Assembly (NCBI GenBank): GCA_013151015.1
Contig: JAADJA010000044.1
Location: forward strand, 65,417-97,756
Source of the DNA: Chlorobiota bacterium
Lineage (GTDB): Bacteria; Bacteroidota; Bacteroidia; Bacteroidales; JAADJA01
DNA: 32,340 nt
Direction of reading: 5' to 3'
Both the position numbers and the translations under genes were made by a program. This document shows positions 8,776-31,927 of this stretch, piece after piece. The notes beneath the pieces are model-generated. The model searched no databases. It was not told the DNA's origin and was given only the letters and a program-made list of their open reading frames with translations. The stretch's first letter is position 1. Each line of letters starts with the position of its first letter.

Positions 8776-8784
8776 TTTGCATCG

Positions 8785-8908
8785 CCGCTTGAAGCTTGCA
8801 ATTTCAAGTATTATGAAGATAGAAAGTTTCTATCTTTCCTATTTCCAAACTGCACTTTATCAGTTGAAAACTGATTGTGTCAGATTCCATCACAGATTAA
8901 TCCTGTGA
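8785..8908 (-). repeat. Composite three-hairpin repeat (family 2), inverted copy
   Basis: Read on the minus strand this copy has the same order as those at 26721 and 27505. Stem A is TCACAG/CTGTGA (8890-8908). Stem B is CAGTT-GAA-AACTG (8861-8873). Then come AGAAACTTT (8823-8831 inverted) and the CTTCAAGCGG end (8785-8794). The loops differ freely, while block order and stems are kept. Confidence 0.65.
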
Positions 8909-8930
8909 AGGGCGGAAGAACCAGATCCGT

Positions 8931-9875
8931 TCAATGGCCAACAATCATTGTTCTTGAAACCATATCATCGGCTAAATTAAAAACAACGAAGTAAATCCCA
9001 CTGGGATAATCAGATATGTCGATAATGATCTTGCCTTCATTTGATTTTTGGAAGGAACCAAAAAACACTTCTTTCCCAATTGAATTAAAAATACGCACAT
9101 CCGTTTTCTCCCCCTTGGAAATAGAAGATTCGACATGGAGTATTTTATTTGCCGGATTTGGGTAAACGCGTATTTTGGGTTCATCGGGGACTTCATTGAC
9201 ACCCAAAAAATCAAAACCACAGTTTTCGGAAGGATCGGCAGTAAAACCATATAGGTATTCACCATTAACTTCAAGGCAATTCATTTCCGGTTGGTGAAAT
9301 GCATCCCAGTAGAATAAATTCGGGAAAGGAGACTTCCATTCACCTACACCTTCTATAACTTGAAGGTCAAAACTACCATACTGCATTATTGATGCAAAGA
9401 AGTAATTTTTTCGTGATTCTCCATTCCATAGCTGTGTTGAGTCAAAAACCGGATTTACTATCAGATAAATACTGTCACCAATATTTGCATAGTCAAAAGC
9501 AGGTAAACTAATAGTGTCCCCAATGTTTACATCAAAATCGTACCCAAGCTTCTCCTGGGTTTCCCCCTGGTAAAGCCTTACAAAGAATATCTTCTTTTTC
9601 CCTGTTTCCTGCCTCATCAGGCAGTGCAATGTCCAGAGGGTATCCTCACTGTTTGGGATTTCAGTGAGCCTGAAAACTTTCTTAAATTGGTTTTCATTTA
9701 CTGTTGTATCTCCCTTAACTGTATATACCACAACATCGTAACCCCCATTTAAGTAATTAAACTCCAATACTGTCCAAAAAGCGTTTTCCTCGGGGAAAGG
9801 GACGTAGTTTTGGGAATGGACAATCGATGATGTTAGAAGAAGTAAGACTGTACTAATTCTTATTGCATTTTTCAT
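8931..9875 (-). CDS. Secreted protein with T9SS type A sorting domain, unknown function
   Basis: This is a 314-residue protein with an N-terminal signal peptide (hydrophobic core at residues 8-20, ending near HSQ). A ~210-residue middle region is unrecognised and rich in Tyr, Phe and acidic residues (YLNGGYDVVVYTVKGDTTV; GDTISLPAFDYANIGDSIY). It ends in a classic sorting domain: IRVYPNPANKILHVE, then DISDYPSGIYFVVF. It should be exported through T9SS to the surface. It starts 13 bp after the end of the BtpA-family gene on the same strand, so it may be cotranscribed, although the functional link is unclear. Confidence 0.85.
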   Translation of the reverse strand: MKNAIRISTVLLLLTSSIVHSQNYVPFPEENAFWTVLEFNYLNGGYDVVVYTVKGDTTVNENQFKKVFRLTEIPNSEDTLWTLHCLMRQETGKKKIFFVRLYQGETQEKLGYDFDVNIGDTISLPAFDYANIGDSIYLIVNPVFDSTQLWNGESRKNYFFASIMQYGSFDLQVIEGVGEWKSPFPNLFYWDAFHQPEMNCLEVNGEYLYGFTADPSENCGFDFLGVNEVPDEPKIRVYPNPANKILHVESSISKGEKTDVRIFNSIGKEVFFGSFQKSNEGKIIIDISDYPSGIYFVVFNLADDMVSRTMIVGH

Positions 9876-10724: not shown

Positions 10725-10764
10725 TCTGCAAAACTTCCAGCGGTCTGTTGCAAGCTGCCCGTCC
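10725..10764 (+). repeat. Partial copy of the end block of repeat family 2
   Basis: The blocks AACTTCCAGCGG and TTGCAAGCTGCC match the distal end of the copy at 26842-26866 (AACTTCAACCGG, then TTGAGCTGCC). The stem A and B blocks are absent. The partial copy ends about 65 bp before the IS3 remnant. Confidence 0.4.
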
Positions 10765-11311: not shown

Positions 11312-11313
11312 TT

Positions 11314-11357
11314 GGCGCAAGTCTGACGGGGAGCATTGCAGGTAAGGGACTTGTGCC
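11314..11357 (-). repeat. 44-bp palindromic repeat (family 3) at the IS break
   Basis: The arms GGCGCAAGTC (11314-11323) and GACTTGTGCC (11348-11357) pair with one mismatch. Read on the minus strand it matches the element at 31828-31870, whose arms are GGCACAAGTC and GACTTGCGCC. At both loci a family 1 hairpin precedes it. Confidence 0.7.
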
Positions 11358-11435
11358 TTGCTTTGTGGCAGTTACTTCGTTTTGTCCCTCCCCCTATGTT
11401 CAAGATTTGCAATCCGGTTACCGCTTATTTCCCTC

Positions 11436-11482
11436 AACCTTCCGGGTCGCCACCACTTTGGCCTGCTTCGACCCAAAAGGTT
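11436..11482 (-). repeat. Family 1 hairpin repeat, inverted copy
   Basis: On the minus strand the arms are AACCTTTTGGGTC and GACCCGGAAGGTT, with a loop beginning GAAGCAGGCC. They are identical to the arms of the second copy at 31731. The rest of 11358-11719 has no gene that I can support. The open frames on the plus strand run through this repeat. A possible -7 box TAGGTTTG is at 11620-11627. Confidence 0.8.
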
Positions 11483-11719
11483 TGGATTGCCCTTCCGCCA
11501 AATGTTAAGGATTTCCGAATCTCAAACCATTATTTTAAGGGGCTGCAATCCGCTTTCCCTAAAAACCTTTATCTTTACCCAACAAAACAAATAGTTTTTT
11601 AAACTGGTACGCAAATCAATAGGTTTGCATTGCACATAGTGTAGCCGGGAGACTACTTTTAGAGGGAACTCATATTGCATATCAAGCTTGAAACCTAAAA
11701 TCAATTAAAATCAAACAAC

Positions 11720-26708: not shown

Positions 26709-26720
26709 TAAAAATAGCCC

Positions 26721-26866
26721 ATCACAGATTGCCTGCCCGACACAGGCGGGAATCTATGATGCAAAAAGATGCAAACAGTTTCCAACTGTTACAAGCAAGA
26801 AAGTCATTAGGTTTGTTAATGTCTGAATGCTCAAAGCTTGCAACTTCAACCGGCAACTTGAGCTGC
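26721..26866 (+). repeat. Composite three-hairpin repeat (family 2), long copy
   Basis: Stem A is ATCACAGATT/AATCTATGAT (26721-26760), with an extra inner CCTGCC/CAGG stem. Stem B is AACAGTT-TCC-AACTGTT (26774-26790). Then come AGAAAGTC (about 26798) and the end block GCAACTTCAACCGG followed by a CTTGAGCTGCC tail (to 26866). It fills the space between the deacetylase-family gene and the ParE-type module. Confidence 0.75.
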
Positions 26867-26915
26867 CAAAAAATATGTTGTTTGCATATACGAATTTCAA
26901 TTCCTTTTGATTTTG

Positions 26916-26923
26916 TATCTTTG
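26916..26923 (+). promoter_or_regulatory. -7 box of the ParE-type toxin-antitoxin operon
   Basis: TATCTTTG is an exact TAnnTTTG match 22 bp before the antitoxin start. Confidence 0.55.
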
Positions 26924-26945
26924 AGCCATATAAATAAATAAATGT

Positions 26946-27203
26946 ATGAACAACACGGCCGAATTAAAAAATAGTTTATTTGAGTTTATTGTAAATACCA
27001 ATGATGTCAATATCCTCAATCAAATACAAGATTATTTTACTCAGTTAAAGCCAGGACATACAGATTGGTGGGATGAGCTTTCCCAAAGCCAAAAAGAAAG
27101 TGTTGACAGGGGATTAATGCAATTGGATAAAGGGGAAAGGATTCCACATGAAGATGTAAAGAAAAGGATCAGGCAGCTTATCGAAAGTAAAAAATCAGGA
27201 TAA
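26946..27203 (+). CDS. Putative antitoxin of an addiction module
   Basis: This is an 85-residue acidic/basic helical protein. It contains HTDWWDELSQSQKESVDRGL followed by DKGERIPHEDVKKRIRQ. This W-x-x-L-x-x-x-x-x-x-I/V-x-x-G-L pattern with the final DKGxxxPHxxV is typical of short antitoxins paired with ParE/RelE toxins in Bacteroidota. The toxin start overlaps its stop codon by one base (TAATG). Antitoxins of this kind usually bind their own promoter, here the region around 26916. The N-terminal ~35 residues (ELKNSLFEFIVNTNDVNILN) probably form the dimer or DNA-binding part. Confidence 0.75.
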   Translation: MNNTAELKNSLFEFIVNTNDVNILNQIQDYFTQLKPGHTDWWDELSQSQKESVDRGLMQLDKGERIPHEDVKKRIRQLIESKKSG

Positions 27204-27481
27204 TGAATGTTTTTTGGTCTCTGGAAGCTTCAAATTCTTACGAAGAAATTATCCTTGGCCTTATTGAGAGATGGCCTATTGATATTGTCGAAAGTTTTGA
27301 AGGAATAGTTAATAAGATAATTAGCAGGCTTTCCAGAAACAAAAGACTTTGCCCACCATCAAAAAAGAAAAACATCAGAAAGTGCGTTATCCACAAAAAT
27401 GTTTCCCTGATTTATAAAATAAACAAAACTGAAATCGAGCTTGTTACATTTATCGATAACAGGAGCGACCATAGATATTAA
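27203..27481 (+). CDS. ParE/RelE-superfamily toxin
   Basis: This is a 92-residue protein with the ParE/RelE fold pattern: FWSLEASNSYEEIILGLIERW at the N-terminal helix pair, a basic middle (SRNKRLCPPSKKKNIRKCVI), and the closing strands NVSLIYKINKTEIELVTFIDNR. The Trp-rich first helix and the C-terminal Asp-Asn-Arg (FIDNRSDHRY) are common in ParE-type gyrase toxins. Which target it hits cannot be decided from sequence. It is translated together with the antitoxin through the TAATG overlap. A family 2 repeat follows 23 bp after the stop. Confidence 0.82.
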   Translation: MNVFWSLEASNSYEEIILGLIERWPIDIVESFEGIVNKIISRLSRNKRLCPPSKKKNIRKCVIHKNVSLIYKINKTEIELVTFIDNRSDHRY

Positions 27482-27504
27482 CAAAGAATCACAAAACCAA
27501 GCCT

Positions 27505-27602
27505 ATCACAGATTGTATCTGTGATGGATTAAGACAAACAGTTTCCAACTGTTTTATCAGAAAGTTACCCACCAGCATCGGGCAGGAAAACTTCAAGCGG
27601 TA
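27505..27602 (+). repeat. Composite three-hairpin repeat (family 2), compact copy
   Basis: Stem A is ATCACAGAT-TGT-ATCTGTGAT (27505-27525), a perfect 9-bp stem. Stem B is AACAGTT-TCC-AACTGTT (27537-27553). Stem C is AAGTT (27562-27566) with AACTT (27589-27593). The copy ends in the CTTCAAGCGG block. This is the cleanest copy. Confidence 0.8.
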
Positions 27603-31641: not shown

Positions 31642-31648
31642 TTGCAAA

Positions 31649-31777
31649 AATCTTTTGGGTCGAAGCAAGCCTGCGGGATGGAGACCCGGAAGGTTGAAAA
31701 AGTAACAAATTGGAATAGGCGGTTGACGAAAACCTTTTGGGTCGAAGCAAGCCTGCGAGGAGGAGACCCGGAAGGTT
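31649..31777 (+). repeat. Tandem dimer of the 82-bp hairpin repeat (family 1)
   Basis: The first hairpin has arms AATCTTTTGGGTC (31649-31661) and GACCCGGAAGGTT (31683-31695). The second has AACCTTTTGGGTC (31731-31743) and GACCCGGAAGGTT (31765-31777). All mismatches are G-U type. The period is exactly 82 bp, as in the dimer at 2584. The loops begin GAAGCAAGCCTGCG. Confidence 0.88.
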
Positions 31778-31827
31778 GAAAAAGTGACGAATTGGAATAG
31801 GCAGTTGATGGAAAAAACAAGGAGTAC

Positions 31828-31870
31828 GGCACAAGTCCCTGCCTTTAGTACTATCCTTCAGACTTGCGCC
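31828..31870 (+). repeat. 43-bp palindromic repeat (family 3)
   Basis: GGCACAAGTC (31828-31837) and GACTTGCGCC (31861-31870) pair with one mismatch. This is the same element as at 11314-11357, here also placed after family 1 hairpins. Confidence 0.7.
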
Positions 31871-31927
31871 ATATGAAAGTCAATGTTAGTATCGTGGTTT
31901 ATAATTACGAATAAACATTACTATATT

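Follow-up and report, generated by a model that had tools for sequence, protein, structure and literature searches.

The analysed stretch of DNA (the window) comprises 32,340 nucleotides of a Chlorobiota bacterium (assembly GCA_013151015.1), positions 65417–97756 of contig C209 in a 4.32 Mb draft genome of 237 contigs (G000). It carries three copies, A, B and C, of a repeat built from hairpins (Table 1). Copies B and A enclose two small ORFs, a putative antitoxin without a family match in NCBIfam, Pfam or PADLOC and a ParE-like toxin that also gave a weak PADLOC match to E2. Copies were scored with two models: R1, a covariance model of unit 1 from six aligned unit-1 copies of G000, and R2, a unit-2 model from nine inverted halves, which include neither copy B nor copy C.

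Table 1. Repeat copies and neighbouring features, in window coordinates
Feature	Position	Strand	Evidence
Second palindromic repeat family (AACCTTNNGGGTC .. GACCCGGAAGGTT), partly tandem, period about 82 nt	2583–2745; 11434–11483; 31647–31810		
Copy C, whole, inverted	8784–8913		
Copy C, facing unit 2	8784–8839	+	R2 45.7 bits, E 8e-9
Copy C, unit 1	8858–8913	-	R1 72.7 bits, E 1.2e-16; C in R1 building set
314-aa ORF with Por secretion tail, beside copy C	8931–9875	-	PF18962 54 bits
GGCGCAAGTCTG repeat, inverted copies	11313–11347; 31837–31871		
Copy B, whole	26717–26854		
Copy B, unit 1 (hp2 26774–26790)	26717–26791	+	R1
Copy B, inverted unit 2	26790–26854	-	R2 28.2 bits, E 7.7e-5
85-aa ORF between B and A, putative antitoxin by position	26946–27203	+	ORF list
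92-aa ORF between B and A, ParE-like toxin	27203–27481	+	PF05016 18.6 bits, below cut-off 23
Copy A, whole	27501–27602		
Copy A, unit 1	27501–27554	+	R1 71.4 bits, E 2.6e-16; A in R1 building set
Copy A, parts of unit 1	hp1 27505–27525; GACA 27533–27536; hp2 27537–27553		read from sequence
Copy A, degenerate second unit, GC-rich palindrome inside, end ..AACTTCAAGCGGT	27555–27602	-	by eye

Form of the repeat

Each half of the element is a tandem hairpin pair, in which a first hairpin (hp1) is followed by about 5 nt, the tetranucleotide GACA and a second hairpin (hp2). In the full element, of about 130–140 bp, two halves stand face-to-face, with hp1 outside and hp2 inside, and the hairpins have the tip AGTTTNNAACT in common. 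Read by eye among the matches listed, unit 1 has the order GC[AC]C, hp1, about 5 nt, GACA, 2–5 nt and hp2; its hp1 is TCACAGATT..AATCTGTGA in G000, where it carries AGATT..AATCT, and CACAGTTTGYAACTGTG in several relatives, and its hp2 has a variable stem with the core GTTTNNAAC. This core forms a hairpin tip here, presumably unlike the attC sites of integron cassettes. Unit 2 consists of GCNGCTTGAAGTTTNNAACTTCAAGC, a linker as in unit 1 and an hp2 whose core is AAGT..ACTT. Exact GACA followed hp1 in 64 of the 91 units scoring at least 30 bits, against about 3% by chance, in a set found with a model that itself contains GACA. The canonical GTAG or GTGG tag was absent from the hairpin foot; units start with GC[AC]C and GACA lies between the hairpins.

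An opposite unit 1 lay within 200 nt of 13 of the 20 unit-2 matches examined, converging with hp2 inside in 11 cases and diverging in two; these 20 were hand-picked from 78 R2 matches (from G000, G016 and G008 those taken as unit 2, from G003 the top two), and R2 also matches many unit-1 copies, weakly. The inverted doublet known from REPINs was thus found in the 11 converging pairs and in copies B and C.

The first-pass annotation described a three-hairpin repeat at about 27505–27602 and 26721–26866 and inverted at 8785–8908. The copies are real, as R1 scores A, B and C and R2 scores B and C, but there are four hairpins, arranged as two facing two-hairpin units. What had been taken for a third block, AGAAAGTT..AACTTCAAGCGG, consists of pieces of two hairpins from the inverted second unit. 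Since R2 matches a facing half in both C and B, the "three hairpins" correspond to one two-hairpin half and the outer pieces of the facing half. A partial copy proposed at 10725–10764 was rejected because R1 and R2 were both silent there up to E = 10.

The copies differ in preservation. The R2 search of the window found no unit 2 in copy A. Copy B, outside the R1 building set, scored 40.5 bits under R1 with filters on and 26.6 bits (E 4e-5) with filters off. Its hp1 stem has one mismatch (ATCTATGAT), and in its unit 2 both hairpins are degenerate while the ATTCA-GACA linker is retained. The hp1 loop of copy B holds a GC-rich palindrome of 20 nt (26731–26750; GCCTGCCCGAYGCAGGCGGG), and a GC-rich palindrome of about this length occurs in the hp1 loop of some other copies. 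Its presence there explains why 8 of 109 R1 matches, in G000, G016 and G013, extend over at least 70 nt. A pattern of the loop palindrome with up to two mismatches was found at seven sites of G000 (L256–L262) and at none with the reversed control; at five of the seven, judged by eye, the hairpin whose loop holds it is of the double-hairpin type. The counterpart of copy B in the relative G016 lacks it.

Family size, covariation and site comparison

At E ≤ 0.01, R1 gave 31 matches in G000, 49 in G016, 17 in G003, 8 in G013, 3 each in G004 and G008 and 1 in G007, some of them other-strand second readings of the palindromic hp1, and no match in 34 of the 41 genomes searched. The seven positive genomes belong to one genus, represented by 17 of the genomes searched. 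This search with a structure model, which the first-pass annotation had proposed, revealed the further copies that a family would have, and the order of the blocks was not lost. The pattern TCACAGATTN{0,30}ATCTGTGA gave seven strand matches at five sites of G000 and none with the reversed control. Of these 17 genomes, 11 contain the tip pattern CAGTTTGYAACTG (G003 alone 30 times), and the control matched once in the whole set.

In unit 1 both stems show covariation far above that in shuffles and slides, and the tip is kept. Across 110 distinct rows, both partners vary in 15 of the 18 pairs, and 93.2% of cells are paired. The covariation score is 0.401, a value that none of 500 shuffles reached (0.146 in shuffles). 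The alignment was fitted to the model and is therefore biased towards its structure. The nine unit-2 sequences did no better than shuffles: the paired percentage was reached by 36 of 500 and the covariation score by 138 of 500. As the unit-2 stems hardly covary, we limit the claim of covariation to unit 1.

In G000 the repeat has the character of REP sequences, short palindromic units present in many copies between genes. Only 2 of the 30 copies scoring at least 30 bits overlap an ORF of at least 110 aa, and one lies at a contig edge. With long ORFs taken as genes, the neighbours of the 27 copies that could be classed converge in 9 cases, diverge in 6 and point the same way in 12.

Fifteen sites of G000 were compared with G016, and five of them aligned. 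G016 lacks the element at C114, C149 and C83, in diverged intergenic DNA, and at C96 and C105 one flank was unaligned. The comparison with relatives that had been suggested therefore showed orthologous sites with and without the element, but neither G016 nor the genus gave a base-precise empty site or a direct sign of movement. The alignments were also read for colinearity on both sides of elements common to G000 and G016. Four of the ten sites judged were colinear (C117, C12, C37 and C77) and in six the alignment broke off at the element in one direction (C119, C209:74274, C209:92133, C55, C7 and C179), a count that omits C206 and C90 (short contigs) and C137 (fragmented matches). In the interval between B and A, G016 has the first element in common with G000, then a 142-aa ORF without a Pfam or NCBIfam family in place of the ParE-like pair, and an element remnant after this ORF. 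The 945-bp gene of the 314-aa ORF beside copy C is a gap in the alignment with G016.

RAYT genes and the probable origin of the repeat

In G004 and G008, hairpins of the family lie on both sides of a RAYT gene, and in G008 the gene is enclosed by a unit 1 and a unit 2 facing each other. The proteins, of 182 or 185 aa, match NF047646 (REP-associated tyrosine transposase) above its cut-off. In both genomes the gene is placed between mutA and mutB, which we take to encode the methylmalonyl-CoA mutase subunits and which are named from protein sequence. We located mutB in 15 of the 17 genomes of the genus. The mutA–mutB junction holds the RAYT gene and units in 2 of the 15 (G004 and G008), units without the gene in 4 (G003, G007, G000 and G016), no family hairpin in 7 (G015, G001, G011, G009, G012, G006 and G014), a run of N in G010 and another ORF in G005. 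This pattern fits an insertion followed by loss of the RAYT gene; events may also have come in another order.

Only G004 and G008 yielded a RAYT gene between repeats of this family; there R1, built from G000 copies, may miss some units beyond the three matches in each. No such gene was found in G000, G016, G003 or G013, which have the most copies, and this counts against the reading that we prefer. The search for a REP-type transposase, also proposed in the first-pass annotation, was thus successful in two relatives, whereas the RAYTs of G000 itself are flanked by other palindromes. PF01797 found six Y1_Tnp genes in G000, and a search with a RAYT protein found two (C195 and C209:14848); as partners of the double-hairpin family they were rejected, their flanks carrying other palindromes. 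G000 is rated 95% complete, so a RAYT gene could have been missed. Because no family-flanked RAYT was found in G000, its copies are probably relics that were inherited and are decaying.

By size and motifs, the G004 and G008 RAYTs are best read as candidates for the Bacteroidetes type, TnpA_REP subclass 2.6. The main text of PMC6006769 equates this subclass with RAYT group 5 of Bertels, gives a median of 179 aa and the motifs NH[LIV]H, WQ and YIH[QN]NP, and describes flanking "atypical secondary structures" that have no GT[AG]G, are exempt from the tag and have copies elsewhere in the genome. Read by eye, the two proteins have NHIH or NHMH, WKQ and YIHNNP; NHMH, in G008, is not covered by the published NH[LIV]H. 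The Bacteroidetes host, the flanking structures without GT[AG]G and the further genomic copies agree with this description, and the two-hairpin GACA units and facing doublets differ from it as far as the main text goes.

The repeat also resembles REPINs (PMC3116915) and BIMEs (PMC6006769), as described in the available text of these papers, in its inverted doublets of short palindromic units, its many intergenic copies and its link to RAYTs. It differs in that each half has two hairpins instead of one, the halves differ in stem sequence and there is no GTAG-type tag. An HUH Y1 enzyme gene between subterminal hairpins, as in G008, recalls IS200/IS605 elements as the main text of PMC6006769 presents them. 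Unlike those, the enzyme scores above the NF047646 cut-off and NF033573 is not listed for it, and no multi-copy autonomous form was seen. We found no description of the detailed double-hairpin form in the main text of PMC6006769 or the available text of PMC3733652, PMC8266576 and PMC3116915. Its kind is already known, in REP sequences, REPIN doublets and RAYTs.

The RAYT genes lying between such hairpins in two relatives make a variant of the known REP mobile elements the most probable identity of the repeat. We consider it likely that the copies form a family of short, non-autonomous repeats of the REP/REPIN type, moved by a hairpin-recognising RAYT and here probably surviving as relics. By analogy with E. 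coli TnpA_REP, the enzyme would recognise the hairpins, perhaps via their tips, on single-stranded DNA, and would cut near a guide-like tetranucleotide, perhaps GACA, where the E. coli enzyme uses GTAG. Doublets may thereby have been moved or copied into intergenic sites. The main text of PMC6006769 credits Bacteroidetes-type RAYTs with no more than "atypical" structures at their flanks. Having both a defined form (two hairpins, one tip, a GACA linker and facing doublets) and an enzyme gene makes DNA recognition by these RAYTs testable.

The elements could instead be the ends of gene cassettes, with an HUH transposase or recombination between copies swapping the DNA between or beside them, hence the toxin–antitoxin pair between B and A. 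The different ORFs in this interval, the missing 945-bp gene and the six one-sided breaks point in this direction. However, the breaks are only a lead: their count has no background rate to be set against, and in draft genomes of short contigs, such as these two, breaks at repeats can be assembly errors; moreover, no cassette was caught moving and four of ten sites are colinear. We regard this explanation as unlikely. It is similarly doubtful that RAYT-driven doublets also move or exchange passenger genes between copies, such as the toxin–antitoxin pair against another gene in the relative. If genes do exchange at copies, REP elements would serve as gene-cassette borders and not just as passive repeats.

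The first-pass annotation had left the choice between a mobile non-coding element and a structured RNA. Mobility is favoured by the many copies, the flanked RAYT and the sites with and without the element, from which we infer movement. A role of the hairpins in RNA, as terminators, mRNA stabilisers or structured regulatory RNA, would agree with the covarying stems, the mostly intergenic copies and the nine copies between converging genes. However, Rfam gave no match either at the gathering threshold or at E ≤ 1, the counts of neighbouring genes show no clear orientation preference, and presence at a given site differs within the genus. Such a role is improbable as an account of the family, and the hairpins may have a side effect on transcripts. 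The facing halves also look like the terminal inverted repeats of MITEs, and there are far more copies than family-flanked RAYT genes, as would be the case if a conventional DDE transposase had moved the elements and the RAYT lay nearby by coincidence. This is very improbable, as the halves are not mutual inverted repeats in sequence (TCACAGATT type against GCTTGAAGTTT type), and the genes found between family units, in two species, encode RAYTs and not DDE enzymes.

Other RAYTs and palindromes

For the protein P0001 no PDB relative was found at E ≤ 0.01. Seven further RAYTs were scanned, six of which score above the NF047646 cut-off, with L116 short by 0.3 bits. Judged by eye, the other RAYTs of the genus mostly have their own, different palindromes, as expected if every RAYT has its own repeat. 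A rule that the REP of every RAYT is a pair of hairpins with a common tip and different stems was not established. Such pairs occurred near the gene at 6 of 40 RAYT loci and far from it at 0 of 40, but hairpin sets drawn one each from different RAYT loci qualified as pairs in 21% of draws. The tip label GTTTGYAAC needs two changes on a RAYT tree of 39 rows, which does not demonstrate a single origin. A Cyclobacteriaceae RAYT (L236), which shares 50% identity with P0001, is accompanied by hairpins that have the GTTTGCAAC tip as here and other stems, and in the tree it is not sister to the G004 and G008 enzymes.

Several palindromes accompany the Y1 transposase genes of G000. The RAYT gene on C195 (L010/L106) has an apparent CCTGCC..GGCAGG palindrome within its reading frame, near the start. 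Around the RAYT gene on the contig of the window (L116, C209:14848), CCCRTTGGTGACAACACCAACGGG and CATGTTGGTGTTGTCACCAACATG palindromes alternate in an array. Four short Y1_Tnp genes (L006–L009, on C23, C2, C183 and C132), one with an internal stop, are surrounded by small repeated palindromes such as GTCCCGTTAGGGAC and GCACCNCTGGTGC; they resemble subclass 1.2, for which the main text of PMC6006769 lists no REP. The GGCGCAAGTCTG motif of the window also occurs beside other RAYT genes of the genus, for example L093 and L099.
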